Source: a virus. From it: a stretch of 20,893 nt of DNA. The position numbers and the translations under genes are program-made. The notes below the pieces were generated by a model. The model made no database searches. It had not been told where the DNA came from and saw only the letters and a program-made list of their open reading frames with translations. The stretch spans positions 1 to 20,893 of the IMG/VR virus record IMGVR_UViG_3300031658_000180; one strand, given 5' to 3'. Shown here one piece after another: positions 4,394 to 20,273 of the stretch. Within the stretch, counting starts at the first letter, position 1; every line of letters begins with the position of its first letter.

Positions 4394-4511
4394 TGTCCCG
4401 TTTAAACACATTACTCTATAACTTCATAACGGGACAATTGTCTCCCTTATTAAAGTAGTTCTATAACGTTCTAGAATTGAATCTCCGTTTTGAAGTTATA
4501 GCATGATGCTA
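4394..4511. repeat. Cluster of palindromes in the non-coding hub
   Basis: Four symmetric elements lie here: TGTCCCGTT (4394-4402) pairs perfectly with AACGGGACA (4428-4436); GACAATTGTC (4433-4442) is a perfect palindrome; the 18-bp element 4459-4476 centred on AACGTT is symmetric in 16 of 18 positions and contains TTCTAGAA; and TAGCATGATGCTA (4499-4511) is a perfect 6+1+6 inverted repeat. A GTTTAAAC site overlaps the first (4400-4407). Together they suggest several DNA-binding sites. No coding frame is credible from 4088 to 4810. Confidence 0.55.
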
Positions 4512-4682
4512 GTTTATGCGTGTAGAAATGAAGCGTATTAAAGTTATATTTATAATTTATCACTCTGTAACGGCTTTATTACTTGAACTACCCTTAGAAC
4601 ACTCTCACCGCTTCACTACTGCATTCTCTAACATTCCCTAGCCTTAGTACCTCTTTTTCCTTAGCTCGATTCTAGCATATAG

Positions 4683-4724
4683 TTATCCACAGGTTATGCA
4701 CAGGTAAATATAATTAAAATAAAT
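4683..4724 (+). other. Candidate replication origin: two DnaA boxes and an AT-rich tract
   Basis: TTATCCACA (4683-4691) is the strict consensus DnaA box. TTATGCACA (4694-4702) matches TTATNCACA in direct orientation exactly 11 bases later, so both lie on the same face of the helix. They are followed at once by an almost pure AT stretch (4704-4724) suitable for unwinding. The position, in the non-coding hub between divergent gene blocks, is typical of an origin. Whether host DnaA really acts here is inferred. Confidence 0.55.
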
Positions 4725-4810
4725 GGGTGATTCGCTTGTGTATTCTGAAAATGAGAGTAAGATTATCATATTAACAACCCGCCTATGCGGACAACCTAAA
4801 AGGTGAAAAT

Positions 4811-5440
4811 ATGAAGAATGAGAATAACAACAAAATCGCTGAAGTTTGGTTAGACAAATTATCAGCCCGTTTAAACCCTCTCTTTAAAGAGTCAGGTAAT
4901 ATAATTCCTGAAGATGTTAAGTTGCATTGTGGCTGGACTTCAAAGGGTTCAGGAAGAGCATCGGCAAAGCATCAGGTACTGGGTGAATGTTTCAGCCGTT
5001 CTTGCAGTGCCAAGGGCGTAAATGAAATCTTTATCTCACCCGTTAGAGCTGATTCGCTAAGGGTGGCTGATGTGTTAGTACATGAGCTATGTCACGCCAT
5101 TGACGATTGTCAGGACGGGCACGGTTCAAAGTTCAGAAGCATTGCAACGGGTGTTGGGCTTACTGGTAAAATGACTGCAACAGTGGCGAGTCCTGAACTA
5201 GAAGAGAAACTCAAAGCCATCATTGCGGACATTGGAGAGTATCCACAAAGCGAGCTTAAAGCACCTGAGAAAAAGCAATCAACGAGAATGCTCAAGATGA
5301 TTTGTGAAAATGAATGCGGGGCTAGTTGCTACCAATCAGCCAAGCAGTCAGAAGAGAACCCTATGTTATGCTCTAACTGTTCAGAGCTACAAGAAGACGA
5401 GCTAGGGTACACAGTGCAAACCTACATGGTGCAAGCATAA
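4811..5440 (+). CDS. SprT-like zinc metalloprotease, 209 aa
   Basis: This is the first gene of the rightward block and by far its largest early product. The zinc-binding motif HELCH is at residues 91-95 (VLVHELCHAIDD), with the third ligand most likely H104 in DGHGSKF. That arrangement is characteristic of SprT/SPRTN-type proteases, which act on DNA-bound proteins. The C-terminal part has five cysteines (C165, C169, C173, C187, C190) that may form a zinc ribbon, as in several SprT proteins. Start: ATG 4811 with AAGGTG about 6 bases upstream. One GTTTAAAC site lies in codons 20-22. In phage, such a protease might strip host proteins from DNA, but that role is inferred. A GGGGTG/CACCCC hairpin with a GTTTAAAC loop follows the stop (about 5453-5470). 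Confidence 0.85.
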   Translation: MKNENNNKIAEVWLDKLSARLNPLFKESGNIIPEDVKLHCGWTSKGSGRASAKHQVLGECFSRSCSAKGVNEIFISPVRADSLRVADVLVHELCHAIDDCQDGHGSKFRSIATGVGLTGKMTATVASPELEEKLKAIIADIGEYPQSELKAPEKKQSTRMLKMICENECGASCYQSAKQSEENPMLCSNCSELQEDELGYTVQTYMVQA

Positions 5441-5491
5441 CAACAATTAACGGGGTGTTTAAACGCACCCCACAACTGGAGGATTAAGATA

Positions 5492-5560
5492 ATGGAAACT
5501 TTAACAGATACACTATCAGACTTAGATATATTTGACGGGGAAGAGATAGAGCTAGGATAA
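5492..5560 (+). CDS. 22-aa acidic microprotein
   Basis: This mini-gene starts at ATG 5492 behind a strong ribosome site (GGAGG, about 11 bases upstream) and reads METLTDTLSD then LDIFDGEEIELG. It is strongly acidic and has no basic residue. It sits alone between the SprT-like gene and a hairpin leader. The good ribosome site and the clean amino-acid pattern support translation. A leader-peptide role for the hairpin at 5570-5604, ten bases after the stop, is another reading. Confidence 0.45.
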   Translation: METLTDTLSDLDIFDGEEIELG

Positions 5561-5569
5561 GACAGCTCA

Positions 5570-5604
5570 CCAGTAACAAGCTCCTTAATTGGGGCTTCTA
5601 CTGG
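5570..5604 (+). promoter_or_regulatory. Hairpin leader A with TTAATT loop
   Basis: CCAGTA pairs with TACTGG (outer stem), and AAGCTCC pairs with GGGGCTT (inner stem, one G-U) around the loop TTAATT. It is followed by a segment ending ACCTTTAGGAGGTTA that supplies the ribosome site of the next gene. A related hairpin and the identical ribosome-site segment occur at 6148-6216. No U-run follows, so this is not a standard terminator. Confidence 0.5.
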
Positions 5605-5638
5605 TAGAAACTATAACAAACCTTTAGGAGGTTACAAA

Positions 5639-5827
5639 ATGAGTAGAAAAGATTATATAAAAATAGCTGAGTTGATTAGCCATATAGCAGATACTAAAAC
5701 AATGGCAGTTGATGGCGGTACTTTAGTTGTAAAGCTAGCCATTCTTTTCAGAGAAGACAACCCTAAGTTTAACAGGGATAAATTCTTTGAGGCTTGTATG
5801 GTAAACGTTGAAGAGGTCACACAATGA
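5639..5827 (+). CDS. 62-aa hypothetical early protein
   Basis: This protein is unrecognised. The ATG at 5639 follows AGGAGG at 8-9 bases, one of the strongest ribosome sites in the window. The product starts MSRKDYIKIAELISHIADTK and is predicted helical throughout, with a central hydrophobic helix segment GGTLVVKLAILF and an acidic end (VEEVTQ). It ends in an ATGA overlap with the next gene, so the two are translationally coupled and probably act together. Small helical early proteins like this are often inhibitors of host functions in lytic phages; nothing here identifies a target. Confidence 0.8.
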   Translation: MSRKDYIKIAELISHIADTKTMAVDGGTLVVKLAILFREDNPKFNRDKFFEACMVNVEEVTQ

Positions 5828-6138
5828 TAAGAGAAATAACACAGTGGGATTTTGTAAACGCTTTCAGTAGTTCAGATAATTATAAAGATAGTTTCTCTTA
5901 TGAGGGACTGATTGAACTCTTTGAATTCTTTGAGCAGTTGGACAATGATTCTGAAACGCCTATCAATTTTGATATGGTAGAGATTGCTTGTACTTATGCA
6001 GAGTATGATAACCTTGCAGAGTTTCAAGATAACTACACTGACGGGAAGGAGATGTTTCCCACAGTCGAAAGTATAGGCTATGTTAGTACAGTGTTAGAGA
6101 TACCTAATACAGAGAGGTTTATTATAGAGCAATTCTAA
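5824..6138 (+). CDS. 104-aa acidic hypothetical protein
   Basis: This acidic protein (many Glu/Asp, few Lys) is coupled to the 62-aa gene by an ATGA overlap. Its features are SYEGLIELFEFFEQLD, then INFDMVEIACTYAEYDNLAEFQDNY. The second pattern, a hydrophobic strand, Cys-Thr-Tyr, and then an 'EY..L.EF...Y' helix, is one I associate with a widespread but uncharacterised phage early-protein family. The acidic surface would fit a DNA-mimic or protein-inhibitor role, but this is speculation. The stop lies just before hairpin leader B. Confidence 0.8.
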   Translation: MIREITQWDFVNAFSSSDNYKDSFSYEGLIELFEFFEQLDNDSETPINFDMVEIACTYAEYDNLAEFQDNYTDGKEMFPTVESIGYVSTVLEIPNTERFIIEQF

Positions 6139-6147
6139 AACCTTACC

Positions 6148-6216
6148 CCGTTTAAACGCCTTCTTAATTGAGGGCTTTGGCGGTATAAACTATTAAACCT
6201 TTAGGAGGTTATGAGA
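6148..6216 (+). promoter_or_regulatory. Hairpin leader B with TTAATT loop and shared ribosome site
   Basis: GCCTTC (6158-6163) pairs with GAGGGC (6170-6175) around the loop TTAATT, and CCG (6148-6150) can close against CGG (6181-6183). A GTTTAAAC site (6150-6157) is built into the left side. ACCTTTAGGAGGTTA follows, identical to leader A. The two leaders look like copies of one regulatory element. Confidence 0.45.
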
Positions 6217-6387
6217 ATGAAGACAACAAAAATATTTGGTATACAATACAGGGGATGGAGTGAAGAACTGAACTTATTTAAGCAGGACTTAGCAAGGATG
6301 CAGGGGCTTGAGTGGTTCAGTTGGTTTATATTAAAACCTATGCTAGTGGTTAGCTGTATAATGTTTGCTATCTTTGGAGGTGTTTAA
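6217..6387 (+). CDS. 56-aa small membrane protein
   Basis: The ATG at 6217 is chosen over the one at 6211 because GGAGG (6204-6208) gives 8-base spacing to the former and only 2 to the latter. The N-terminal part (MKTTKIFGIQYRGWSEELNLFKQDLARMQ) is soluble and mixed-charge. The C-terminal 20 residues (WFILKPMLVVSC then IMFAIFGGV) form a probable transmembrane helix. The TAA stop lies inside a GTTTAAAC palindrome, five bases before the next ATG. The Trp-rich juxtamembrane part (LEWFSWF) is typical of inner-membrane phage proteins. Function is unknown; superinfection exclusion or membrane disruption are possibilities. Confidence 0.7.
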   Translation: MKTTKIFGIQYRGWSEELNLFKQDLARMQGLEWFSWFILKPMLVVSCIMFAIFGGV

Positions 6388-6392
6388 ACATC

Positions 6393-6575
6393 ATGGAAAA
6401 TATAATAGTAAAAGATTTGATAACGCTTGGTAGTCTTTTTGAAAACTTATTCAATCAGACAGGCATAGGTAGGGATAAAAATTATATGTATATGTACAGT
6501 GATACAAGCACGGGCATGGATTACTTTAAGAATTCAATCACAAGAAAATATATAAAAGTTAAGGAGGCTGTTTAA
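6393..6575 (+). CDS. 60-aa hypothetical protein
   Basis: This protein is unrecognised. It begins at ATG 6393, with GGAGG 12 bases upstream inside the previous gene's last codons, so coupling is likely. The product is helical at the N-terminus (MENIIVKDLITLGSLFENLF) and then Tyr/Met-rich (NYMYMYSDTSTGMDYF), ending with a basic ITRKYIKVKEAV. It contains no cysteine and no clear membrane segment. Its TAA stop is also embedded in a GTTTAAAC site (6570-6577), immediately followed by the ATG of a 23-aa membrane microprotein. Confidence 0.65.
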   Translation: MENIIVKDLITLGSLFENLFNQTGIGRDKNYMYMYSDTSTGMDYFKNSITRKYIKVKEAV

Positions 6576-6577
6576 AC

Positions 6578-6649
6578 ATGTTGGCTACTACTATCACTAT
6601 AATTTATATTATAATTGGAATAGGGACAGGTGTCTGGTTTTCAAGGTAG
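6578..6649 (+). CDS. 23-aa transmembrane microprotein
   Basis: This mini-gene starts at ATG 6578 directly after GTTTAAAC, with GGAGG (6563-6567) 10 bases upstream. The product, MLATTITIIY followed by IIIGIGTGVWFSR, is almost entirely hydrophobic until the final Phe-Ser-Arg, so it is a single membrane span with a positive C-terminal anchor. The ribosome site and the stop-start arrangement repeat those of the gene before it. No family is recognisable at this size. Confidence 0.6.
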   Translation: MLATTITIIYIIIGIGTGVWFSR

Positions 6650-6678
6650 AAATTACTCTAAAACCCTGATAGCTTCTA

Positions 6679-6704
6679 AGCCTTTGGTCATGTGGTCAAG
6701 GGCT
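6679..6704 (+). other. Hairpin AGCCTTTG / CAAGGGCT
   Basis: AGCCTTTG (6679-6686) pairs with CAAGGGCT (6697-6704) with one G-U around a 10-base loop, 30 bases after the microprotein stop. It is not followed by a U-run. The stretch 6650-6786 otherwise holds no gene, only two tandem GTTTAAACGAG copies (6762 and 6776). Confidence 0.4.
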
Positions 6705-6786
6705 GAAGTCGTTTAAATATTTACAAGCTCACAGTGAGGACGACAGGAGACGAGAGAGGGTGTTTAAACGAGGTTGTTTAAACGAG

Positions 6787-6903
6787 CTTGACAACCTTAA
6801 CAATTTATGGTAAGGAAAAATAATCCTTGACAACCTTGACAAATTATGATAGGAAAAATTAGGGCTTGACATTCAAACTAATTCATGTATATTAGAAACA
6901 TAA
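6787..6903 (+). repeat. Three tandem 39-bp repeats beginning CTTGACA
   Basis: CTTGACA begins at 6787, 6826 and 6865, an exact 39-base period. Units 1 and 2 are closely similar (CTTGACAACCTT, ACAA, TTATG, then GGAAAAAT). Unit 3 keeps the head but diverges into a functional-looking promoter. Each head also looks like a -35 box, but in units 1 and 2 no -10 box stands at the right distance, so these copies may be binding sites rather than promoters. Confidence 0.65.
6866..6893 (+). promoter_or_regulatory. Sigma70-like promoter P1 of a duplicated cassette
   Basis: TTGACA (6866-6871) and TATATT (6888-6893) are 16 bases apart, followed by a short leader with GGAGAT before the ATG at 6924. The whole promoter-to-start cassette is repeated at 7085-7146, with the block ATTCATGTATA conserved around the -10. 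Confidence 0.65.
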
Positions 6904-6923
6904 ACAAATGGAGATAAAGAAAA

Positions 6924-7082
6924 ATGAAGACACAGATAAAAAGAATTAGGGCTTATACATTTGACAAGAACGGATACCCTATTAATAGTAGGGGCAAAAT
7001 AATTTTAACGAGTAAGATTACTGCTTCGTTTAAACAGTCCGCCAACAACGAAGGTTCACGGGTTACTTGGTTGACAAAATAA
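6924..7082 (+). CDS. 52-aa basic hypothetical protein
   Basis: This small basic protein begins MKTQIKRIRAYTFDKNGYPI and ends GSRVTWLTK; it has about 11 Lys/Arg and two acidic residues. Alternating polar and hydrophobic residues suggest a small beta-strand fold. The start has GGAG at 10-base spacing and stands directly downstream of promoter P1. A GTTTAAAC site is read here as Ser-Phe-Lys-Gln (7027-7038). Its stop codon lies 3 bases before the -35 of the second promoter copy. Function is unknown; nucleic-acid binding is possible from the charge. Confidence 0.6.
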   Translation: MKTQIKRIRAYTFDKNGYPINSRGKIILTSKITASFKQSANNEGSRVTWLTK

Positions 7083-7085
7083 TGC

Positions 7086-7113
7086 TTGACATCTTAGAAG
7101 ATTCATGTATAGT
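7086..7113 (+). promoter_or_regulatory. Sigma70-like promoter P2 of the duplicated cassette
   Basis: TTGACA (7086-7091) and TATAGT (7108-7113) are 16 bases apart, followed by AACAATAAACAAAAAGGAGAT before the ATG at 7144. Bases 7085-7146 align with 6865-6926 across the -35, -10, leader and ribosome site. Confidence 0.65.
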
Positions 7114-7143
7114 AAAACAATAAACAAAAAGGAGATAAGAATT

Positions 7144-7593
7144 ATGAAAGGATTATTACAAACGATAGTGGGTGAGGCAGTTAAGAAGGGATACTACTAC
7201 GCCATTGATTGCGACAGTGGATACGGGTTTACTGACAAGCATTTTTTCCAACACCCTACACAGGATATGTCATTGCTTTGCAATCAGAAACCTGAGGACG
7301 AATACATAGGTGTTGATAACCTTGACGAATGTCATATCTTTTTCTTTACCAAAGAACAAGCAGAGCGTTTAAACAATGCGGTAGGTAAGGTTAGCTCTGA
7401 CCGTGAGATATGGGAGAGCGAGGAAGAGGAGGAGAAGGGGCGATACTTTGATGGGTGGATACTGTGGTCGAACTGGAATGACGGGGTGGAGAGAGTGTGC
7501 GATTATACCTGTAAGTTAGACGAACTGATAGGGCTTAGTAAGATAAGCGACAAGTGGGAAGCAAAAGTTGAAGCGTTTAAACACGCTCTATAA
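7144..7593 (+). CDS. 149-aa hypothetical protein with poly-Glu stretch
   Basis: This protein is unrecognised. The ATG at 7144 is preferred to one at 7105 because 7105 lies inside the P2 promoter and GGAGAT stands 8 bases before 7144. The product is acidic. It opens MKGLLQTIVGEAVKKGYYYA, has many aromatics (GYYYA, HIFFFTKEQAERL, WILWSNWNDG), a run of five Glu at about residues 99-103, and four or five scattered cysteines. The AEQAxRL-type helix followed by an acidic and then Trp-rich region suggests a compact soluble fold. GTTTAAAC occurs twice (7367, read RLN; 7575, read FK). It is probably an early host-directed protein, by context only. Confidence 0.75.
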   Translation: MKGLLQTIVGEAVKKGYYYAIDCDSGYGFTDKHFFQHPTQDMSLLCNQKPEDEYIGVDNLDECHIFFFTKEQAERLNNAVGKVSSDREIWESEEEEEKGRYFDGWILWSNWNDGVERVCDYTCKLDELIGLSKISDKWEAKVEAFKHAL

Positions 7594-7605
7594 AGGAGAA
7601 TGAAA

Positions 7606-7842
7606 ATGAGTAAAGCAAAGTTTATAAATGCAATCTTTGGGATGAGTGTAGAGTTTGATCTTGAAGAGCTAAACATAGATTGGGAAGAGGTAGAGGACTA
7701 CTACATCAAATGGATGGTGCTTCATGTGAGCTTTAAAGATGGCTCAAATCAGGACTATAAACCCACAAACGAGGGTGAGTTAGATGCTAAGTGGGCAGTA
7801 GAAGAAACTATATATGATGATGAATACAGAGAATATCTTTAA
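7606..7842 (+). CDS. 78-aa acidic hypothetical protein
   Basis: This protein is unrecognised. AAAGGAG (7592-7598) sits 7 bases before the ATG at 7606 and only one before an in-frame ATG at 7600, so 7606 is chosen. The product, MSKAKFINAIFGMSVEFDLE and onward, is rich in Glu/Asp and Trp/Tyr (NIDWEEVEDYYIKWMVLHVSF), with strand-like alternation, and ends DDEYREYL. The acidic, aromatic composition resembles its neighbour at 7144. It is co-transcribed from P2 and ends just before the TGTCACA iteron array. Confidence 0.75.
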   Translation: MSKAKFINAIFGMSVEFDLEELNIDWEEVEDYYIKWMVLHVSFKDGSNQDYKPTNEGELDAKWAVEETIYDDEYREYL

Positions 7843-7855
7843 AAGTTTACAAGAT

Positions 7856-7899
7856 TGTCACACTTCTGTCACACCATTGTCACAGTAGTATGATATGAT
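7856..7899 (+). promoter_or_regulatory. Three TGTCACA iterons and overlapping weak promoter
   Basis: TGTCACA stands at 7856, 7867 and 7878, exactly 11 bases apart (one face of the helix). A -10-like TATGAT follows at 7889-7894, for which CTGTCA (7866-7871, within repeat 2) is a 17-base-spaced -35. A second TATGAT is at 7894-7899. Overlap of iterons and promoter suggests repression. The same iteron reappears at 8487 and 8498. Confidence 0.6.
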
Positions 7900-7904
7900 A
7901 AGTT

Positions 7905-7997
7905 TTGTAGTTAGGAGTGAGCCTTTATAAAATCCCACTGAGTGTAGCGTTAAGGCTAAAAGTAAATGAGTACTATACCACCATGCACTAACTACAA
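7905..7997 (+). ncRNA. Structured 5' leader or small RNA
   Basis: TTGTAGTTAG (7905-7914) is the exact complement of CTAACTACAA (7988-7997). Nested inside, AGCCTT (7920-7925) pairs with AAGGCT (7952-7957). The outer stem begins right where transcription from the promoter above should start. A 13-codon frame (ATG 7966 to TAG 8007, containing Pro-Pro) overlaps the right arm but has a poor ribosome site. The region 7843-8051 has no convincing gene; it looks like a regulatory leader for 8052. Confidence 0.45.
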
Positions 7998-8051
7998 CAG
8001 TTGCTAGACCTGTAAAACTAGCACCATTAATTTTAAAAAAAGGAGAATGAT

Positions 8052-8267
8052 ATGAGTAGAATGTATGATAACTTTTGCGAGACAGTAGACAGTATCTATA
8101 TCGCAATCAATGAGAGTGGGTTAAGTGAGGGACTGTTTAAACAACTTCATAAGGAGCAAGGTGCTGACACCACTGCGTATGTAGTGAAGCAACAGTTTGT
8201 TACCTTACCTATGTTTTTTAACGAAGCACTAGACCACGTAACCAAGGAGATAATCAATGAGCACTGA
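8052..8267 (+). CDS. 71-aa helical hypothetical protein
   Basis: This protein is unrecognised. The ATG at 8052 is preceded by AAAAAGGAGAATGAT with GGAG 8 bases upstream. The product is predicted all-helical (MSRMYDNFCETVDSIYIAINESG, then SEGLFKQLHKEQGAD, then PMFFNEALDHVTKEIINEH), mildly acidic, with one Cys. A GTTTAAAC site encodes the LFKQ. It overlaps the following gene by 11 bases. It is expressed behind the structured leader and iterons at 7856-7997, so it is likely a regulated early product. Confidence 0.75.
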   Translation: MSRMYDNFCETVDSIYIAINESGLSEGLFKQLHKEQGADTTAYVVKQQFVTLPMFFNEALDHVTKEIINEH

Positions 8268-8484
8268 AGTAAACAGCACACTCATGGATAACATGAGAGA
8301 CAATGTACATGAGCTATGGGTGCTAGAAGGTAGACCTGATTTAGAGGACGACTGCCTTCAGTATTGTTATGATAATATTGGTAGACCCGTACCTATAACC
8401 ATGATAGAGTTCCTATCTAAACACTGTGGTCAAGCCATGTCGAGTGAAGACTATGAACATATGTCAAAGAAAGAAGAGACATGA
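8257..8484 (+). CDS. 75-aa acidic hypothetical protein
   Basis: This protein is unrecognised. It starts at ATG 8257 inside the previous gene with AAGGAG about 8 bases upstream. The product MSTEVNSTLMDNMRDNVHEL and onward is acidic and helical, with three cysteines (ddClqyCyd and skhCgq). It contains no complete metal-site pattern, although Cys-Leu-Gln-Tyr-Cys and His-Cys could bind metal. It closes the two-gene unit behind the iteron-controlled leader; the second iteron pair begins 3 bases past its stop. Confidence 0.75.
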   Translation: MSTEVNSTLMDNMRDNVHELWVLEGRPDLEDDCLQYCYDNIGRPVPITMIEFLSKHCGQAMSSEDYEHMSKKEET

Positions 8485-11149: not shown

Positions 11150-12829
11150 ATGGAAAACAAAACTTGGCATAAGTTAAAACAACCTTGTCCACTTTGCACC
11201 AGTAGTGATGCTGTAGGAATCAACGAAGATGGTTCAGCAAAGTGTTTCAGTTGTGGAGAATTTATGCCTAATTATAATAATTCATGTGAAGGAAAAGATA
11301 TGGAACAAACAACAACAGTAAATCAAACAGTGTTTAAACAACCTGATACTATAGACACAGGTACTTTCTCTGCTCTAACTGATAGGCGAATCTCTCAAGA
11401 GACAGCTAAGAAGTATAGCGTTAAGGTAGCTCACGATCTACAGGGCAAGGTAGTTAAACACATGTACCCTTATTATAATGGACTTGAACTTTCTGCTACT
11501 AAAGTTAGAAATGTAGTTAGCAAAGACTTCTTTGTTAATGGTTCTTATAATGACACAGGTTTGTTTGGTCAACAGTTGTTTAAAGGTGGCAAGTATGTCA
11601 CCGTAACCGAAGGGGAGTGTGATGCTATGGCGGCTTACGAACTACTAGGTAGTAAGTGGGCAGTCGTATCCATTAAGCGTGGTGCACAGGGGGCAGTCCG
11701 AGACATCAAAGATAGTCTAGAATTCTTTGATGACTTTGAAAACGTTATCATATCTTTTGATAGTGATAAGGCGGGACAGGAAGCGGCTATTAAAGTTGCG
11801 AGGCTGTTTAAACCCGGCAAGGCTAGGATACTCACGCTTCCCAATGGCTTCAAAGACCCTAATGATATGCTTCGTGACAACAAGCACAAGGATTTTGTTG
11901 AGGCGTGGTGGGCTAGTAAAGTCTACACACCTTCAGGCGTTATCAATGTATCGGAACAGCGTGAGAAGTTTCATAACCGTGAGAGAAAACCAAGTGTCCC
12001 CTATCCTTATGAAGGACTAAACAAAAAGCTGTATGGCTTAAGACAGGGAGAGTTGGTTACTTTAACAGGTGGTACAGGACTCGGTAAGTCTAGTGTGACC
12101 AGAGAATTAGAACATCATCTCATTAAGAATACTACAGACAACGTAGGCATTATTGCATTAGAAGAAGATTGGAGACGAACCATTGATGGTATCCTTTCCA
12201 TTGAAGCTAACGCGAGACTCTATGTTGATGAAGAACGTGAGAAGTTTTCTAAAGAAGAACTTGATAATATGTTTGACATACTATATGATGGTGATAATAA
12301 AAACAGAGTATGGGTTCACTCACACTTTGGCACTAATGATATTGATGACATCTTTACCAAGCTACGCTTTATGATTATCGGATGCGACTGTAGGTGGGTG
12401 GTCATTGACCATCTACACATGCTAGTCAGTGCCGTACACGATGGTGATGAAAGACGAGCTATTGATGCGATTATGACTAGGCTAAGAAGTCTAGTTGAAG
12501 AGACGGGTGCGGGGATTATTCTTGTGTCACACTTAAGACGTGTCGATGGTAACAAGGGACATGAGAACGGAATCGAAGTAAGTCTTTCTCATCTACGTGG
12601 CTCTAACAGTATCGGACAACTGTCTGATTGTGTGATTGCTCTTGAAAGGAATCAGCAGTCTGATGACCCTGAGGAAGCTAGGACTACAAGACTTCGTGTA
12701 CTTAAATCAAGATACACGGGTGATGTAGGGCTTGCGGCTAGAGTTGTCTATGATAAAGATACAGGTAGATTAACAGAACTAACAGACGAGGACATTGAGT
12801 TTGACCCGTCTGCTGATGAGGCATTTTAA
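11150..12829 (+). CDS. Helicase-primase (T7 gp4-like), 559 aa
   Basis: This bifunctional replisome engine makes RNA primers and unwinds DNA. The zinc-binding domain has C13, C16, C32, C35. The TOPRIM primase core has VTVTEGECD (E154) and ISFDSDKAG (D204, D206). The hexameric RecA-like helicase has Walker A GGTGLGKS (K313), the catalytic ALEED (E338/E339), Walker B WVVIDHLHML (D420), the sensor VSHLRR (H461), SHLRGSNSIGQLSD, ALERNQQ, and an arginine-finger candidate R521 in RVLKSRYTGD. All align with T7 gp4, and the length is close to its 566 residues. The tail is acidic and ends in Phe (SADEAF), as in gp4, where it docks the polymerase. Start: ATG 11150 with GAGGG 5 bases upstream; a GTG at 11138 is an alternative. 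Two GTTTAAAC sites lie within (11332, 11806). Confidence 0.97.
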   Translation: MENKTWHKLKQPCPLCTSSDAVGINEDGSAKCFSCGEFMPNYNNSCEGKDMEQTTTVNQTVFKQPDTIDTGTFSALTDRRISQETAKKYSVKVAHDLQGKVVKHMYPYYNGLELSATKVRNVVSKDFFVNGSYNDTGLFGQQLFKGGKYVTVTEGECDAMAAYELLGSKWAVVSIKRGAQGAVRDIKDSLEFFDDFENVIISFDSDKAGQEAAIKVARLFKPGKARILTLPNGFKDPNDMLRDNKHKDFVEAWWASKVYTPSGVINVSEQREKFHNRERKPSVPYPYEGLNKKLYGLRQGELVTLTGGTGLGKSSVTRELEHHLIKNTTDNVGIIALEEDWRRTIDGILSIEANARLYVDEEREKFSKEELDNMFDILYDGDNKNRVWVHSHFGTNDIDDIFTKLRFMIIGCDCRWVVIDHLHMLVSAVHDGDERRAIDAIMTRLRSLVEETGAGIILVSHLRRVDGNKGHENGIEVSLSHLRGSNSIGQLSDCVIALERNQQSDDPEEARTTRLRVLKSRYTGDVGLAARVVYDKDTGRLTELTDEDIEFDPSADEAF

Positions 12830-12830: not shown

Positions 12831-14564
12831 ATGGACTTAGTATTTGATATAGAAACAGACGACCTTCAGGCTACACTGGTACATTGTATTGTAGCTCAAG
12901 ACGCATCCTCAGGGGAGATATTTAAATTTCCTCCTCATAAATTAGCAGAGGGTTATCAGTTTCTTACTACAGCAGACCGCCTCATAGGACATAACGTCAT
13001 TGGCTTTGACATACCACTGGTAGAAAAGTTTGGTGGTGTTGATCTTAGTAAGATAGAAGTTATAGATACCCTCGTGTTATCTAGGCTGTTTAATCCCACT
13101 AGAGATGGTGGTCACAGTTTAGAGAGCTGGGGATTCAGGCTTGGTCTTGCTAAGATAGTCTTTGAAGATTACCTGAACTATTCATCAGAGATGCTAGAGT
13201 ATTGTGTTCGTGATGTGCAAGTGAACACACTTGTATACAACGCACTGCGTCAAGAGTCCAAGGGCTTTAGTAAATCTTGTATTGAGATAGAGCAATCAGT
13301 GGCTAAGATTGTCAAGCAACAAGAAGTTAGTGGTTTTAAGTTTGACATGAAGGCTGCTCTAACTTTGTTAGCAGAGCTTAGAGAAAAGAAACAGCTCATT
13401 GAAGACGAGGTACACAATACGTTTAAACCTAAGTGGGTTGATACTAAGTTAGTTACCCCCTACATTAGGACGACAGACGGTAAGCTATCTAAGCGGGGTC
13501 TTTCTGACGATGAATACGCAAGGTGTTTAAACACTCTTAACCACGAGCCGTTCATGCGACAGACACTACAAGATTTTAATCTAGGTAGTCGTAAGCAGAT
13601 TGGAGAATACCTCATAGACTTTGGTTGGAAGCCTGATAGGTTTACTCCGACAGGTCAGCCTATTGTAGATGAGAAAACTCTGTCAGCAATTACGCACATC
13701 CATGAAGCTAAACTTATAGCAGACTTTCTTTTATTACAGAAACGTATTGCTCAAGTTGACTCATGGGTAGATGCAGTTAAAGAAGATGGTAGAGTACACG
13801 GCTTTGTGATACCTAATGGTACTATCACCGGTAGGATGGCACATAGAAAGCCTAACATGGCTCAAGTCCCTTCTGTTCACAGCCCCTATGGTATAGAATG
13901 TAGAGCCTGTTGGATAGTGGATGAAGGGAATGTTTTACTAGGCGTTGATGCTAGTGGACTAGAGCTACGAATGTTAGCACACTATATGGACGATGAAAAT
14001 TATATAAAGGAGATATTAGATGGAGATATACACACGGCTAATCAAAACGCTGCAAAACTTAAATCAAGAAATCAGGCTAAGACATTCATCTATGCACTCA
14101 TGTACGGAGCGGGAGATGAAAAGCTTGGCAAAGTGGTCGAAGGAAATACAGCAGATGGTAAACGAGCTAGAGAATATTTCTTCGATAATAACCCTGCATT
14201 TAAGTCTCTTAGAGACAGAGTTACGCGGGCAGCCGCCAAGAAATACCTTAAGGGGTTAGATGGTAGGAAGTTGTACATTAGAAATACACATGCCGCACTT
14301 AATACTTTGCTTCAAGGAGCGGGTGCTATTGTTATGAAGAAAGCTTTAGGTATATTAGATGACCTACTTAGACTCAACACTATTGATTATAAGTTTGTTG
14401 CTAACATACACGATGAGTGGCAGATAGAAGTCAAGGAGTCTCAAGCAGAATTTACAGGGGAGCTTGCTGTTACTAGTATAGTAAAAGCAGGTGAGTATTT
14501 TAATCTTCGCTGTCCTATGGATGGTGAATACAAAGTAGGGAGGAACTGGAGTGAAACACATTAA
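12831..14564 (+). CDS. DNA polymerase, family A (T7 gp5-like), 577 aa
   Basis: This is the replicative polymerase with proofreading. Exonuclease motifs: FDIETD (D6, E8), LIGHNVIGFD (H54, D60) and YCVRDV (Y124, D128). Polymerase motifs: A, VDASGLELR (D373); B (O-helix), RNQAKTFIYALMYGAG (K417, Y421); C, NIHDEW (D528, E529). Y421 occupies the position of E. coli Pol I Phe762, a Tyr as in T7. The protein is about 125 residues shorter than T7 gp5 (704). Much of this lies between exonuclease motif III and motif A (245 versus about 301 residues), so the thioredoxin-binding loop is probably absent or reduced. Start: ATG 12831, one base after the helicase stop; an open frame continues 12 codons upstream but overlaps the helicase. 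The last 26 bases are the first copy of a direct repeat. Confidence 0.97.
   Translation: MDLVFDIETDDLQATLVHCIVAQDASSGEIFKFPPHKLAEGYQFLTTADRLIGHNVIGFDIPLVEKFGGVDLSKIEVIDTLVLSRLFNPTRDGGHSLESWGFRLGLAKIVFEDYLNYSSEMLEYCVRDVQVNTLVYNALRQESKGFSKSCIEIEQSVAKIVKQQEVSGFKFDMKAALTLLAELREKKQLIEDEVHNTFKPKWVDTKLVTPYIRTTDGKLSKRGLSDDEYARCLNTLNHEPFMRQTLQDFNLGSRKQIGEYLIDFGWKPDRFTPTGQPIVDEKTLSAITHIHEAKLIADFLLLQKRIAQVDSWVDAVKEDGRVHGFVIPNGTITGRMAHRKPNMAQVPSVHSPYGIECRACWIVDEGNVLLGVDASGLELRMLAHYMDDENYIKEILDGDIHTANQNAAKLKSRNQAKTFIYALMYGAGDEKLGKVVEGNTADGKRAREYFFDNNPAFKSLRDRVTRAAAKKYLKGLDGRKLYIRNTHAALNTLLQGAGAIVMKKALGILDDLLRLNTIDYKFVANIHDEWQIEVKESQAEFTGELAVTSIVKAGEYFNLRCPMDGEYKVGRNWSETH
14539..14564 (+). repeat. 26-bp direct repeat, copy 1
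   Basis: This copy is identical over 26 bases to 15138-15163 (offset 599 bases); identity stops at both ends. It contains a GGAGG ribosome site, a GTG start and the codons for Lys-His-Ile, and in the polymerase frame it encodes the last residues and stop (NWSETH). Confidence 0.95.
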
Positions 14565-15626: not shown

Positions 15627-16131
15627 CACGTGTGGTGTGTTGTTAGACGAAGCTAACTGGAATCCTTCGTGGAAAGAAACAGATAGGACTCAATGTAAAT
15701 CTTGTAACAACCCTAACCGTACTGAACATAACCCAAATAGAATGTTTGTTAATGGTAAGTACATACCTAAGTCTCATCAACTGTACAAAGCCGGTAACTT
15801 TAAAACGTTTTCAGATGCCGCCTTTGAATCCTTAGCTGGATATGCTACTACCCCTGAAGGAGAAGTCTACATCATTGTTAACCCAGCGTGGAAAGGATGG
15901 ATTAAAATAGGCATGGCTATCGAGGCTGAGGACAGACTTAGAGGCTATCAAACTTCTAGTCCGCTAAGAGACTTTAAATTAAAGTTTAAGAAATACTTTG
16001 ATAATAGACGCAAGGCAGAGCAACAGGCTCATACATTATGTGCTAAGAAAGCAACCAAGCGCAAAGGAGAATGGTTTAAGATAGACCTAAAGATAGCTAA
16101 AGATATTATTAATAACATGGAGATCGTTTAA
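15601..16131 (+). CDS. Zinc-finger GIY-YIG-like nuclease (T5orf172/MUG113 type), 176 aa
   Basis: Residues 8-35 hold two CxxC pairs (C8/C11 and C32/C35), an N-terminal zinc module. Residues 87-160 follow the T5orf172-type GIY-YIG pattern: GEVYIIVNPAWKGWIKIGMA as the paired strands with KIG, then R112 in DRLRGYQTSSP, then a helix with His (AEQQAHTLC) and the glutamate in KGEWFKI (E157). Such proteins are often mobile or homing-type phage nucleases. I choose ATG 15601 (TGAGGA 6 bases upstream) over a TTG at 15589. It overlaps the previous gene by 26 bases and, like the two genes before it, begins Met-Lys-His. Its TAA lies in GTTTAAAC (16126), followed by ATG. Confidence 0.75.
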   Translation: MKHMKKSCNTCGVLLDEANWNPSWKETDRTQCKSCNNPNRTEHNPNRMFVNGKYIPKSHQLYKAGNFKTFSDAAFESLAGYATTPEGEVYIIVNPAWKGWIKIGMAIEAEDRLRGYQTSSPLRDFKLKFKKYFDNRRKAEQQAHTLCAKKATKRKGEWFKIDLKIAKDIINNMEIV

Positions 16132-16133
16132 AC

Positions 16134-17006
16134 ATGACTAAATCAAAGAAAACACTTGACACATTGGTCGGAGACATCTATAATAAGATAGGTGTACTTG
16201 CTGATGGTGAGCACATGGAACTAGACGAAGCCGCTATAGATAAGTTCGGTGAGTCTATGAAAGAAGTTCTTTACAGCTGGTCACACCCTGCACCACGAGG
16301 TAACACTACCTTACGTATGTCTAACATTGGTAGGAAAGAAAGACAACTCTGGTACGACATGAAGACTGAAGGTACTCCAGAAAGGATGCCACCATCTTTG
16401 TTCATTAAGTTCTTATACGGGCACTTGCTTGAGGAAGTTGTGTTGCTGTTAGTTAAACTAGCAGGACACGAGGTAACAGGAGAGCAGAAAGAAGTAGTGG
16501 TATCTGGAATCAAAGGACACATGGACTGCATCATTGATGGAGAGGTTGTCGATATTAAGACAGCATCTGGCTTTGCCTTTAAGAAATTTAAAGACGGTAC
16601 CTTAGCAGAGAACGATGCGTTTGGTTACATGGCACAGTTAGCTGGGTATGAAGAAGCAGAGGGCACAAGTAACGGAGGATTCCTAGCATTGAACAAAGAG
16701 TCAGGAGAGTTAGCTTTATACCAACCAGATAATTTTGATAAGCCTAACATCAAAAAGAAAATCAGTAGTATTAAAAAAGCTGTCAAGCTTTCTACTCCTC
16801 CTGATAGGTGTTACACTACTATACCTGATGGTAAGTCTGGTAACATGCAGCTTGCAAAAGGATGTGTATATTGTAGACATAAGTTTGAATGTCACAAAGA
16901 TGCTAACGAGGGTAAAGGTTTAAGAGTATTTAAATATTCAAATGGATATAGGTATCTAACACAGGTACCTAAAGCCCCTAATGTTATCGAGGTAACACAA
17001 TTATGA
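16134..17006 (+). CDS. RecB/Cas4-like PD-(D/E)XK exonuclease, 290 aa
   Basis: This probably degrades DNA ends or processes recombination intermediates, replacing T7 gp6. Motifs: YGHLLEE (H97, E100), GHMDCII (D131), EVVDIKT (D140, K142) and YMAQLAGYEEA (Q168, Y172). These are the four signature blocks of the RecB/Cas4/lambda-exonuclease branch. Near the C-terminus, C226 plus C244-x2-C247-x5-C253 form a cysteine cluster resembling the iron-sulfur site of Cas4 and AddB, though the first cysteine is not at the N-terminus as in Cas4. It begins two bases after the GIY-YIG-like gene's stop and overlaps the next gene by four bases. The nuclease class is secure; polarity and the iron-sulfur cluster are inferred. 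Confidence 0.85.
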   Translation: MTKSKKTLDTLVGDIYNKIGVLADGEHMELDEAAIDKFGESMKEVLYSWSHPAPRGNTTLRMSNIGRKERQLWYDMKTEGTPERMPPSLFIKFLYGHLLEEVVLLLVKLAGHEVTGEQKEVVVSGIKGHMDCIIDGEVVDIKTASGFAFKKFKDGTLAENDAFGYMAQLAGYEEAEGTSNGGFLALNKESGELALYQPDNFDKPNIKKKISSIKKAVKLSTPPDRCYTTIPDGKSGNMQLAKGCVYCRHKFECHKDANEGKGLRVFKYSNGYRYLTQVPKAPNVIEVTQL

Positions 17007-17251
17007 GCGGTAAGAGAGCAAAACAAGTAAGAAGAAGAGGTAGAGAACTACTGATTGAGTGGATTAGAACTATGGTTCCTGAAGAGGGAGAGCAGACTCC
17101 TATAGATAAGAGTAACATAGATAATTTTCTACCACAACAGACACACTTCTTTGCAGGTGGACAGCTTAGACAGAGTGCTTATACTTTAAAATGGTTTTAC
17201 AAGAAAGTAAAACGTAACCCGAATGTAACACTGGAGAACATCAATGCCTAA
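17003..17251 (+). CDS. 82-aa basic hypothetical protein
   Basis: This protein is unrecognised, although small proteins of this kind commonly sit between exonuclease and endonuclease genes in T7-like marine phages. It begins MSGKRAKQVRRRGRELLIEW in an ATGA overlap with the exonuclease gene. It is basic and helical at both ends, with a central DKSNIDNFLPQQTHFFAGGQ and a C-terminal SAYTLKWFYKKVKRNPNVTL. It has no cysteine or membrane segment. The coupling at both ends (8-base overlap with endonuclease I) and the charge suggest a DNA-associated accessory. Confidence 0.8.
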   Translation: MSGKRAKQVRRRGRELLIEWIRTMVPEEGEQTPIDKSNIDNFLPQQTHFFAGGQLRQSAYTLKWFYKKVKRNPNVTLENINA

Positions 17252-17681
17252 GAGAGTCCCTCGTAAACCGAGACCAAAGAAGACAAATGTTCCAAAAGGA
17301 TATGACAGTAAATGGGAGTATGATATTCATCAAACCATTCTTAAAGATTGGAAACATCATTATGAATCTATTAAGTACATCATTAAGAAAGAGTATGAAG
17401 TAGATTTTGCAAAAACTATAGGGGACAAGACAATCCTCCTCGAAGCTAAGGGCAGGTTCTGGGACTACGCTGAGTACAGTAAGTATCTGTGGGTAAGGAA
17501 AGCTTTACCTGCTAATATGGAACTAGTGTTCCTATTTCAGAAGCCATACGCCCCTATGCCAGCCGCTAAGAAAAGATTAGATGGTACCAAGCGTACTCAC
17601 GCAGAATGGGCAGAAGCAAATGATTTTAGATGGTACAGTGAAGATACTTTGCCGGACACTTGGAGAACTAATGGATTATAA
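17244..17681 (+). CDS. Endonuclease I / Holliday junction resolvase (T7 gp3-like), 145 aa
   Basis: This resolves branched DNA before packaging and helps degrade host DNA. The T7 gp3 catalytic set is present: E25 (YDSKWEYDI), D54 (YEVDFAK), E67 and K69 (LLEAKGRFWD). Downstream segments KYLWVRKALPANMELVFLF and RTHAEWAEANDFRW match the order and spacing of T7 endonuclease I, and the length equals the T7 protein (149). The N-terminus is strongly basic (PKRVPRKPRPKK). The stop (17679-17681) overlaps a seven-codon remnant reading MDYKFNE that begins at 17671 and belongs to the duplicated start of the gene beyond the HNH insertion. Confidence 0.92.
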   Translation: MPKRVPRKPRPKKTNVPKGYDSKWEYDIHQTILKDWKHHYESIKYIIKKEYEVDFAKTIGDKTILLEAKGRFWDYAEYSKYLWVRKALPANMELVFLFQKPYAPMPAAKKRLDGTKRTHAEWAEANDFRWYSEDTLPDTWRTNGL

Positions 17682-17691
17682 ATTTAATGAA
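17671..17691 (+). repeat. Direct repeat flanking the HNH gene, copy 1
   Basis: This copy matches 18079-18099 at 19 of 21 bases; TATAAATTTAATGAA is identical (17677-17691 and 18085-18099). It reads MDYKFNE and then a stop, with GGAG (17662-17665) in front, so it looks like the decapitated start of the gene now at 18079. Confidence 0.85.
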
Positions 17692-18082
17692 TAAAAACAA
17701 TAGAAAAGATTATCATAAAGAATATGGTAAAAAGTGGTATCAAGATAATAAAGAAAAAAGAGATACTCAAAAAAAAGAATATAATAAAATTAATAAAGAA
17801 AAAATAAAACTACATAAACAAGAGTACGAGTTAAAAAGAAAATATGGTATAACTTTAAAAGAAAGAAATATTTTATTACAAAAACAAAACAATAAATGTA
17901 AAATTTGTTCTTTAAAGTTTAATGAAAATATCTTTAAATTAAAAGCTTGTGTAGACCACTGCCACGACACTGAGAAAGTCAGAGGTTTGTTATGTCGTAC
18001 TTGTAATGCAGGACTCGGTTATTTTAAAGATAACATAGAAGAATTAACAAAGGCTATTAACTATTTAAAGGAAACAAAATGA
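17687..18082 (+). CDS. HNH endonuclease (endonuclease VII type), probable homing insertion, 131 aa
   Basis: The C-terminal half is a clear His-Me-finger nuclease of the T4 endonuclease VII type: CKIC (C71, C74), ACVDHCHDT (D90, H91, H93), RGLLCRTCNAGLG (C103, C106, N107), then the helix NIEELTKAINYLKE. The N-terminal 55 residues are a Lys/Glu/Tyr-rich helix, probably DNA binding. The first 250 bases are extremely A-rich, unlike the neighbours, suggesting recent acquisition. The ATG (17687) lacks a ribosome site and lies inside the seven-codon remnant frame (17671-17694), so it may depend on translational reinitiation. It is flanked by direct repeats of the next gene's start. It resembles free-standing homing endonucleases, but a resolvase role is not excluded. 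Confidence 0.88.
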   Translation: MNKNNRKDYHKEYGKKWYQDNKEKRDTQKKEYNKINKEKIKLHKQEYELKRKYGITLKERNILLQKQNNKCKICSLKFNENIFKLKACVDHCHDTEKVRGLLCRTCNAGLGYFKDNIEELTKAINYLKETK

Positions 18083-18099
18083 ACTATAAATTTAATGAA
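18079..18099 (+). repeat. Direct repeat flanking the HNH gene, copy 2
   Basis: This second copy is in frame as the first seven codons (MNYKFNE) of the DUF3310-like gene. The distance to copy 1 is 408 bases. Confidence 0.85.
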
Positions 18100-18372
18100 G
18101 ATCAATTACTATCTGAGCTTAAGGCTTATGTAGATGCCACATACAGCGAACATTATGCCTCTGATAAGTACCAAGCAACAGATGTTATCATTGATGCTGG
18201 ACACGGTGAAGGATTCTGTATGGGTAATATTATGAAGTACGCTAAACGCTATGGAAATAAAGACGGACATAACAGAAAAGACTTGCTAAAAATACTACAC
18301 TATGGTATAATAATGCTTGATATACATGATGATAGAGACAAGTTTTTTAAAACAGGAGAGAGTAAGTGGTAG
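18079..18372 (+). CDS. DUF3310-like protein, 97 aa
   Basis: The segment GEGFCMGNIMKYAKRYGNKD then GHNRKDLLKILHYGIIML (about residues 43-80) follows the DUF3310 pattern: a Phe-x-x-Gly-Asn strand-turn, Lys-Tyr-x-x-Arg, then Asp-Leu-x-Lys and a hydrophobic helix. This small family is common in tailed phages; its job is not settled (in T7 such a domain occurs within the gp1.7 nucleotide kinase). A link to nucleotide metabolism would fit its place directly before nrdA, but the catalytic parts of gp1.7 are not evident. ATG 18079 overlaps the HNH stop (ATGA). Its first codons are duplicated upstream at 17671. The stop overlaps the GTG start of nrdA by 7 bases. Confidence 0.65.
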   Translation: MNYKFNEDQLLSELKAYVDATYSEHYASDKYQATDVIIDAGHGEGFCMGNIMKYAKRYGNKDGHNRKDLLKILHYGIIMLDIHDDRDKFFKTGESKW

Positions 18373-20273
18373 AAGATAAAGTAGGTATCAAAGAATGCCT
18401 AGGGATAAAAATTAATTATAGTAACGAAAGAAACTTAGATAAGTTTAGTCTTGATACACTTAAGGATAGATACTTATGGAAGGATAAAACACATAATGAA
18501 ACACACGCACAAGAAGCCTTCGCAAGAGCATCCGTCTTCGGAGCAACCTACAAAGGTGTCACAGATTTTGAATTGGCTCAAAGACTTTATCACTACAGCT
18601 CCTCATGTTGGTTCATGTTTAGCACTCCTATACTTAGTAACGGGGGAACAAGCCGTGGTCTTCCTATTAGCTGTTTCCTCAATTATGTTCCTGACAGCAG
18701 GGGTGGTTTATCAGACCATTATGACGAGAACATTTGGTTGGCAAGTTCAGGTGGAGGTATTGGTGGATATTGGGGAGACGTTAGGAGTAACGGTGTATCT
18801 ACTGCTCATGGCAGTAAGTCTACTGGTTCTATCCCTTTCATGCATGTCGTAGATTCTCAGATGTTAGCCTTCAACCAAGGCACAACAAGACGAGGTTCTT
18901 ATGCGGCATACATGGACATAAGTCATCCAGAGATTGAAGAGTTTATTAACATCCGGAAAGAATCAGGTGGGGATATTAACCGTAAGTCTTTAAACTTACA
19001 CAACGGTGTTAACATCACCAATGAATTCTTACAGGCTGTTGAAGCCGATTCAGAGTGGAGACTTATAGACCCTAAAAGTAAGGAAGCTCTTAAGGTTGTT
19101 AGTGCTAGAGACTTATGGTGGCAAATCATTAACGCTAGAGCAGAGACAGGAGAGCCTTACATGATTAACATTGACACATGTAACGCGGCTCTACCTAAAG
19201 AACAGAAAGCTTTAGGCTTAGAGATTAAGCAGAGCAACCTGTGCTCAGAGATAACACTACCTACTAACGAAGAACGAACAGCCGTGTGTTGTTTATCTAG
19301 CGTAAATTTAGAATACTTTGACGAGTGGTCAGAGAACCCTATGTTCATTAGAGATTTAATAACCATGCTCGACAATGTTTTACAACATTACATTGACAAC
19401 GCTGTTGATACAGACAACTTAGGAGAATACAATGCAAACTTTAAAAGGTTTCAAAAACATATCAAGCCCGGTAAAGAAGGCTTTCTTAAATCTGCCTACT
19501 CGGCTTACAGAGAGCGTTCACTTGGTCTCGGTGCGATGGGATTCCATTCGTATCTCCAATCACGCAGCCTTCCTTTTGAGGGTATCTATGCTACGGGGTT
19601 TAATCACAAAGCGTTTAAACACATTAAAACACACGCTACCAGAGCATCTGAAAGACTTGCAGACGAGCGTGGAGAAGCTCCTGATGTCAGTGGTAGTGGG
19701 CGTAGGAATGCTCACCTTCTCGCTGTTGCTCCTAATGCCTCTTCTAGTATTATTTGTGGCGGGACATCTCCTTCTATTGAGCCGTACAGGGCTAATGTTT
19801 ATACGCACAAGACTCTCTCCGGTTCTTTCCAAGTTAAGAACAGACACTTAGAAAGCTTATTAGCTGCTAAGAAACTAAACAAAGATGAGCTTAAAGAAGT
19901 TTGGAAAGACATAGCCGGACATGAAGGTTCAGTGCAACACCTATCTATTCTTACTGATGAAGAGAAAGAAATATTTAAAACTGCCAATGAGCTTGACCAG
20001 ATATGGATTATAGAACATGCTTCTAAACGTCAAGAGTTTATTTGTCAGGCTCAGTCAGTTAATTTATTCTTTACAATTCCTACAGCTACTGAGAAACAAG
20101 AAATACACGATGACTACATGCAGTATGTAAGTGATGTACATTGGTATGGGATGCATAAGCTAAAGTCTTTGTATTACTTTAGAACTAATGCTGCTCGTAA
20201 CGCAGAGAATGTTAACATTAAAGTTCAGCGTATTAAATTAGATGACGCTGAGTGCATAGCTTGTGAGGGATAA
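18366..20273 (+). CDS. nrdA: Ribonucleotide reductase class I, alpha subunit, 635 aa
   Basis: This catalyses reduction of ribonucleotides to dNTP precursors for replication. Active-site residues are present: C103 (PISCFLN), the radical cysteine C293 with N291 and E295 (NLCSE), C308 or C309 as the partner cysteine, PNASSS at about 456-461, the electron-transfer pair Y603/Y604 (SLYYFRT), and the C-terminal redox pair C630/C633 (CIACEG). At 635 residues it is about 125 shorter than E. coli NrdA (761). The N-terminus begins close to the catalytic region, so the ATP-cone that mediates dATP feedback inhibition appears to be absent. Start: GTG 18366 with GGAG 7 bases upstream, overlapping the DUF3310-like gene. 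GTTTAAAC at 19613. Confidence 0.96.
   Translation: MVEDKVGIKECLGIKINYSNERNLDKFSLDTLKDRYLWKDKTHNETHAQEAFARASVFGATYKGVTDFELAQRLYHYSSSCWFMFSTPILSNGGTSRGLPISCFLNYVPDSRGGLSDHYDENIWLASSGGGIGGYWGDVRSNGVSTAHGSKSTGSIPFMHVVDSQMLAFNQGTTRRGSYAAYMDISHPEIEEFINIRKESGGDINRKSLNLHNGVNITNEFLQAVEADSEWRLIDPKSKEALKVVSARDLWWQIINARAETGEPYMINIDTCNAALPKEQKALGLEIKQSNLCSEITLPTNEERTAVCCLSSVNLEYFDEWSENPMFIRDLITMLDNVLQHYIDNAVDTDNLGEYNANFKRFQKHIKPGKEGFLKSAYSAYRERSLGLGAMGFHSYLQSRSLPFEGIYATGFNHKAFKHIKTHATRASERLADERGEAPDVSGSGRRNAHLLAVAPNASSSIICGGTSPSIEPYRANVYTHKTLSGSFQVKNRHLESLLAAKKLNKDELKEVWKDIAGHEGSVQHLSILTDEEKEIFKTANELDQIWIIEHASKRQEFICQAQSVNLFFTIPTATEKQEIHDDYMQYVSDVHWYGMHKLKSLYYFRTNAARNAENVNIKVQRIKLDDAECIACEG

Follow-up and report, generated by a model that had tools for sequence, protein, structure and literature searches.

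A dispersed 8-bp palindrome travels with a SprT-like metalloprotease gene in phages and plasmids

Introduction

What keeps 21 copies of the 8-bp palindrome GTTTAAAC in a 20.9-kb piece of viral DNA, and what reads them? The question is raised by the stretch analyzed here (the window: 20,893 nucleotides, positions 1 to 20,893 of IMG/VR virus record IMGVR_UViG_3300031658_000180), which is a fragment, as are most of its relatives. An initial annotation had taken the copies for a site family of a phage or host DNA-binding factor or a modification enzyme. Our analysis points to the element's own SprT-like zinc metalloprotease, which very probably forms a pair with the palindromic sites. We assign a probability of roughly 0.55 to the full explanation, in which a site-reading, autoregulated SprT-like protease regulates the element that encodes it. 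We found no description of a pairing between SprT and GTTTAAAC or its one-base variant GTTTACAC in the literature searched, subscription papers and preprints lying outside that search.

Results

The palindrome is enriched and maintained as DNA

The window holds exactly 21 copies of GTTTAAAC, and every coordinate named in the initial annotation was recovered. Across 100 dinucleotide shuffles the mean was 0.60 and the largest count 3, reproducing the earlier chance figure of about 0.6. Markov models predict 0.7 (dinucleotide), 0.9 (trinucleotide), 1.5 (tetranucleotide), 3.1 (pentanucleotide) and 5.6 (hexanucleotide) copies, the higher-order figures including the motif's own sub-words; tri- and tetranucleotide usage thus comes nowhere near 20 copies, and shuffles and models together exclude chance or base composition as the cause. 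GTTTAAAC is the commonest 8-mer of the window, whereas the runner-up 8-bp palindrome reaches only 6 copies. Its one-mismatch neighbors occur 0–2 times apiece, so usage of the word is all-or-none. The proposed extension to YGTTTAAACR also holds, with Y at −1 in 20/21 copies and R at +1 in 17/21. Flank conservation stops after about one base, which led us to reject a repeat family or mobile element as the source. As first described, 14 copies lie in the early region (4400-9675), seven in the replication region (11332-19620) and none in the leftward packaging block (1-4300).

To follow the sites through evolution, we chose relatives with a related DNA polymerase and counted conservation over alignable sites. 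In L318, all 13 of 13 alignable GTTTAAAC sites are identical, compared with 25% of other 8-mers and 12% of G/C-flanked A/T 8-mers; 13 of 14 are kept in L317 and 10 of 10 in L010. In four relatives whose available sequence holds no SprT-like gene (L009, L015, L080 and L081), 0 of 23 sites are kept, against 21–29% of other 8-mers. Among the window relatives retrieved by polymerase, nine records have neither a SprT-like gene nor GTTTAAAC enrichment. Enrichment in close relatives is therefore present in some and absent from those without the gene in available sequence. The nearest cultured relatives by polymerase are the pelagiphages HTVC103P and HTVC115P (50% identity), whose first 50 kb contain 0 and 1 copies, respectively, with no SprT-like gene found there. 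Protein-level constraint is ruled out because exact 8-mers are kept in differing reading frames and in intergenic DNA. The GTTTAAAC copies are thus maintained by selection acting on DNA, as the initial annotation had supposed.

As a separate observation, 28 of the 64 possible 6-bp palindromes are wholly absent from the window (1-20893), in contrast to the abundance of GTTTAAAC; their absence suggests restriction-site avoidance.

The motif is coupled to a SprT-like gene

The coupling was approached from both sides, with word permutation and SprT-less relatives, rather than a census of all phages, as the baseline. For the motif-first sample, 120 viral contigs were fetched solely because they carry two GTTTAAAC copies within 30 bp. 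Many of these come from phages otherwise dissimilar to the window, and what the dense contigs have in common with it is a gene homologous to its SprT-like one. Blind all-against-all comparison placed the blastp family of the SprT-like protein from contig L201 in 18/41 dense and 0/64 sparse loci (P=2.5e-9); several other families matched or outscored it, and these appear to belong to the gene set of one freshwater lineage. Two motif-bearing loci without a SprT gene, L166 and L178, turned out to have one elsewhere in the same record (G004, and G019 with E=3.6e-48).

For the gene-first sample, 69 loci from genome and viral collections were fetched solely by SprT similarity. GTTTAAAC or GTTTACAC ranks first among all 8-mers in 20/69 of these loci and is among the top 25 over-represented 8-mers in 46/69; composition-matched random word pairs put through the same test gave a mean of 0.06/69 and a maximum of 15. 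Among the window's 28 genes, SprT alone is present in all 20 motif-positive panel genomes, so this screen of window genes revealed no shared methylase or endonuclease. The 41 motif-positive elements form 21 groups, many of them based on partial loci, with fewer than five proteins in common between one group and another, and the pairing covers at least eight unrelated phage groups plus a Magnetospira plasmid.

Cultured phages chosen by their SprT gene show the same pattern. Bas97, KA2-1, MQ-4, Mano, Persinger, R5C and R26L are rich in GTTTAAAC, and GTTTACAC is the most over-represented 8-mer in Powerpuff, Microdon, Emotion, Zeta1847, Yang and 4A. In full genomes, GTTTACAC occurs 43 times against 0.05 expected in Streptomyces phage Microdon, 27 against 0.13 in Powerpuff and 22 against 0.08 in Zeta1847; for GTTTAAAC the figures are 20 against 0.02 in Dinoroseobacter phage R26L and 41 against 1.2 in G004. 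The related phages Bas97, KA2-1, MQ-4, Mano and Persinger have 4–7 sites per genome; the E. coli phage Bas97 has six, one of them just upstream of its SprT-like gene. Hosts of motif-bearing elements include Escherichia, Serratia, Dinoroseobacter, Arthrobacter, Microbacterium, Streptomyces and Magnetospira.

The gene also occurs on 70 plasmid records, mostly sphingomonad. GTTTAAAC is the top 8-bp palindrome in the Magnetospira plasmid MGMAQ_p (18 copies, 0.4 expected) and in two Sphingobium plasmids, pRSMS3 and a plasmid of S. yanoikuyae (2 and 4 copies, 0.05 expected each). On pRSMS3 the SprT-like gene directly precedes ParA, which is followed by a hypothetical gene and the replication initiator; on MGMAQ_p, ParA lies ~1.2 kb downstream of it.

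The earlier idea of a site family for a DNA-binding factor thus survives in general form, narrowed to a phage-encoded SprT-like candidate. Its other options, a host factor or a modification enzyme, are disfavored because the motif follows one element-borne gene across differing hosts and because gene-less window relatives lack the sites.

The SprT-like protein and its proposed site preference

The relevant features of the protein are as follows.

4811..5440, + strand: SprT-like zinc metalloprotease of 209 residues, first rightward gene, candidate partner of the sites (Pfam, phrog_6361, AlphaFold)
5081..5095, + strand: HELCH active-site motif of the SprT domain, residues 91-95 (family alignment)
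5120-5122, + strand: H104, candidate third zinc ligand (family alignment)
5270..5296, + strand: KKQSTRMLK, residues 154-162, with the Q-x-T-R signature before the C-terminal zinc ribbon; proposed site-reading element

The protein scores 27.1 bits against Pfam SprT-like (curated cut-off, 25.6) and matches phrog_6361 with E=1.9e-35. Its AlphaFold model has a pLDDT of 82.7, the SprT domain being confident and the C-terminal ribbon less so. The best fold matches in the PDB, of modest significance, are to SPRTN (6mdx and 6mdw; probability 0.85, E=0.017, whole-chain TM 0.32–0.37). The HExxH residues and third histidine (H91, E92, H95 and H104) are present in 111 of 112 non-identical aligned members; the exception, L095, has lost its active site, yet carries 19 sites in 12 kb.

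Motif type tracks the protein. On a FastTree tree of 133 SprT sequences, motif labels set by thresholds of our own choosing change 18 times, compared with 52.4 after shuffling. The Q-x-T-R signature is associated with GTTTAMAC enrichment (71/4 versus 12/19; Fisher P=1.6e-9, uncorrected for relatedness), and several SprT clades without the motif are also without the signature. The Bas97 group retains GTTTAAAC without a clear Q-x-T-R signature.

Other words are over-represented in some SprT-carrying elements. In L357, L360, L217, L218 and L214, CTTTAAAG (in the context GCTTTAAAGC) replaces GTTTAMAC as the enriched word, and the signature arginine of CTTTAAAG-type proteins is replaced by F or Y; such phages are a possible specificity variant. 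GTACTAGT is also enriched in L217, but its copies are local tandem repeats, and GTACTAGTAC palindromes stand in tandem at L217:483-600, six copies within 120 bp. L363, beside a GTTTACAC clade, has six copies, against 0.12 expected, of GTGTACAC, in which the GTGT half-site forms a complete palindrome. Two SprT-positive contigs carry further words: L381 has ~15 copies of the unrelated iterated word GTCATAAC/GGTTATGA against 0.5 expected, and L348 has 17 of AGTACTAC against 0.5 and 12 of TAGTACTA against 0.24. A SprT-like clade from bacterial assemblies (L301, L303, L305-L307, L309 and L313, from Polynucleobacter, plus L312) has neither GTTTAMAC nor Q-x-T-R and is possibly domesticated or otherwise targeted.

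Sites cluster around the SprT gene and, in one phage group, overlap promoters

In 73 loci with at least four sites, positions were measured from the conserved SprT N-terminus. A site lies within 150 bp upstream in 28/73 of these loci, compared with 7.0 expected (P=2e-9), and a second family-wide peak falls just past the gene, 500–700 bp after the N-terminus. In Bas97 and its four relatives named above, one site each lies ~22 bp ahead of the start annotated for SprT.

Promoter overlap is seen in one phage group, the AZ/EH phages of Arthrobacter and Microbacterium, involving 8/22 sites in Zeta1847 (0.25 at random), 5/27 in Powerpuff (0.25) and 4/17 in Emotion (0.19). In Powerpuff and Emotion, sites directly follow the −10 element (TTGCGC-N17-TAGACT-GTTTACAC) of promoter-like sequences; in Zeta1847, they lie between −35 and −10. 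Intergenic sites exceed expectation in MGMAQ_p (10 versus 4.0), Yang (8 versus 1.5) and Zeta1847 (5 versus 1.8). The strand split of GTTTACAC is 21/22 in Microdon and 16/6 in Zeta1847, revealing no consistent orientation.

Spacing differs among elements. Sites are more even than random in R26L (coefficient of variation (CV) 0.36 versus 0.93, with 0/5000 simulations as even), Yang (CV 0.44, 0/5000), Microdon (0.53, 0/5000), Powerpuff (0.53, P=0.0006) and MGMAQ_p (0.61, P=0.02), but clustered in the window, G002 and G003. The GTTTAAAC copies of the window are placed as follows.

4400..4407: in the intergenic stretch that separates the leftward packaging block from the SprT gene
4869..4876: within the SprT gene, close to its start
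5457..5464: just downstream of the SprT stop codon, within the loop region of hairpin 5450-5473
6150..6157: intergenic
6382..6389: across a stop codon, shortly before the next ATG
6570..6577: across a stop codon
6762..6769: intergenic, upstream of a TTGACA-rich promoter-like stretch (6788-6893)
6776..6783: 6 bp past the copy at 6762
7028..7035: coding
7367..7374: coding, kept in L010
7575..7582: coding, kept in L010
8135..8142: coding, kept in L010
8901..8908: coding, kept in L010 and L016, missing in L009
9668..9675: coding, kept in L010 and L016, missing in L009 and L015
11332..11339: in the primase-helicase gene
11806..11813: in the primase-helicase gene
13421..13428: in the DNA polymerase gene
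13525..13532: in the DNA polymerase gene; also in the distant motif-positive relatives L049, L053, L058, L060 and L063
15272..15279: coding
16126..16133: across a stop codon, immediately before the ATG of a Cas4-type exonuclease gene
19613..19620: in the ribonucleotide reductase gene, kept in L011

The hairpin directly past the SprT stop codon (5450-5473) reads GTGGGGTGCGTTTAAACACCCC leftward and holds GTTTAAAC in its loop region. Just past the paired sites at 6762 and 6776, positions 6788-7113 contain repeated TTGACA modules with TATATT/TATAGT-like second hexamers, which look like an early promoter cluster.

Discussion

In our proposal, the phage's own phrog_6361-type SprT-like metalloprotease (4811-5440) recognizes GTTTAAAC. 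The protein, probably a dimer on the palindrome, would read GTTT/GTGT half-sites through the basic Q-x-T-R segment beside its zinc ribbon. By binding its own promoter, further promoters and sites dispersed through genes, it could control or silence transcription across the entire mobile element, its own gene included, in an arrangement that recalls the operators plus stoperators of phages. A built-in switch would then be supplied by the zinc-protease domain, which would cleave either itself or a bound protein upon changed conditions. We infer direct binding, the dimer, the DNA-reading residues, repression as the outcome and the switching role of the protease from patterns in sequence.

Transcriptional control is favored because sites overlap promoters and bracket the protein's own gene, and because lysogens of Powerpuff are stable and homoimmune although no repressor could be identified in that phage (PMC8758107). 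We give the regulatory role of the SprT/site pair about even odds. Several observations weigh against it. The near-universal HExxH motif exceeds the needs of a plain repressor. In Microdon, Yang and 4A, sites overlap promoters weakly or not at all, and the intergenic GTTTAAAC count of the window (5, with 4.2 expected) shows no enrichment. Bas97 has an annotated CI-like repressor as well. No tyrosine integrase, the one type searched for, was detected in the site-dense G002-G005 and R26L (AZ phages use serine integrases); this suggests that lysogenic immunity is probably not the general role. These dense phages, and the plasmids, thereby weaken a general immunity repressor as the explanation. 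The pairing itself has gaps in both directions, with no SprT-like gene found in the dense fragments L179, L156, L190 and G018 (25 sites in 17.9 kb), and no GTTTAMAC enrichment in the SprT-like clades Armstrong/Gack, MW2/PSA20/Epa5 and chromosomal Polynucleobacter. Moreover, the SprT tree has many weak forks.

A different role for the same pair would be to address the protease to its own DNA, where dispersed sites would keep every stretch near a tethered enzyme that clears host silencers, restriction or defense proteins, or crosslinked or stalled proteins. This is the most serious competitor, although we consider it improbable, at about one chance in four. It would account for the 111/112 conservation of HExxH, for the fold match to SPRTN, a protease of DNA–protein crosslink repair, for the even spacing in R26L, Yang, Microdon, Powerpuff and MGMAQ_p, for the occurrence of the family not only in temperate phages but also in conjugative plasmids and in phages where no tyrosine integrase was detected, and for the position of the SprT-like gene as first rightward gene of the window. 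Clearing has no need, however, of sites at promoters and upstream of the gene itself; it fits poorly with the clustered sites of the window, G002 and G003, and with L095, which keeps its sites without an active site. Even spacing, conserved catalysis and presence in plasmids and elements without detected tyrosine integrases favor, or at least allow, a DNA-distributed protease. More broadly, we tentatively suggest that phage and plasmid metalloproteases may be sent to sequence-specific sites along their own element for proteolysis of DNA-bound host silencers, defense proteins or their own regulator. Regulation and proteolysis can be compatible if the protease is the switch of a DNA-bound regulator.

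Explanations that alter the owner or purpose of the sites are less probable still. Even spacing in several genomes, together with ParA beside the SprT-like gene on pRSMS3 and ~1.2 kb from it on MGMAQ_p, might indicate that a ParB/parS-like or nucleoid-like system partitions or organizes the DNA of these phages and plasmids; we regard this as unlikely, as pRSMS3 has only two sites and the S. yanoikuyae plasmid four, and partition is not required by most of the phages. An 8-bp palindrome with all-or-none usage could also be the target of some host factor or of methylation/restriction, with the SprT-like gene as passenger, but this idea fares worse, given that the motif spans seven host genera from Escherichia to Magnetospira, that the nine gene-less window-relative records are also without enrichment, and that motif variants track both the SprT tree and a signature inside the protein. 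A HIP-like host motif and a methylation site are disfavored by the coupling to one element-borne gene. Least probable, by a small step, is that another co-inherited phage gene binds the sites, for example one for a small helix-turn-helix (HTH) protein. A LexA-HTH-like family of 85 residues occurs in 22/41 dense and 0/64 sparse contigs, and DNA-binding proteins are annotated close to the SprT gene of AZ/EH phages; across lineages, however, the LexA-HTH gene is in just 3/41 motif-positive elements, whereas SprT alone among the screened window genes is in all 20 panel genomes. On that count the LexA-HTH gene, which is confined to its freshwater lineage, was rejected as the binder. One copy lies at L087:3128-3385, and its homologs are shared by the GTTTAAAC-dense freshwater phage lineage.

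The coupling links a widely annotated, functionally unknown phage gene with one particular DNA word in phages and plasmids that are otherwise unrelated, and makes the SprT-like protein a candidate for the repressor still missing from temperate phages of cluster AZ/EH. A sequence-addressed protease, if real, would be the first of the SprT/Spartan type and a new means by which elements control or protect their DNA. If the protein is a plain repressor, the system would be a less novel variant of dispersed operators.

Among known systems, cyanobacterial HIP1 (GCGATCGC) is likewise a highly iterated octameric palindrome selected as DNA, but it characterizes host genomes and is linked to a methylase, whereas GTTTAAAC accompanies one mobile-element gene from host to host. 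ParB–parS systems share palindromic sites, an element-encoded candidate binder and, on sphingomonad plasmids, a location beside or near ParA; parS sites are normally few and clustered, whereas the plasmid sites here are few (2–4) or element-wide (18) and not clustered, and the candidate has no ParB fold. The inverted repeats called ESAS of cluster K mycobacteriophage Adephagia lie at promoters, their regulator is unidentified, and the phage also encodes a SprT protein (PMC11373665). ESAS are longer and of other sequence. The stoperators and operators of cluster A mycobacteriophages, bound by the L5/Bxb1 repressor, resemble the present sites in being short, numerous and dispersed both at promoters and within genes; promoter overlap in Zeta1847, Powerpuff and Emotion and the link to homoimmunity in AZ phages extend the likeness. 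Stoperators are 13-bp asymmetric sites read by a helix-turn-helix protein, whereas here an 8-bp palindrome or near-palindrome without consistent orientation, found on plasmids as well, is paired with a candidate SprT-fold zinc metalloprotease bearing a zinc ribbon. That candidate resembles SprT and SPRTN (Spartan) in its Pfam assignment, its HExxH motif and third histidine, its C-terminal zinc ribbon and, at modest significance, its best structural matches, 6mdx and 6mdw. To our knowledge, SprT/SPRTN members act on DNA-bound proteins without sequence specificity; the family described here, by contrast, travels with a specific dispersed site.

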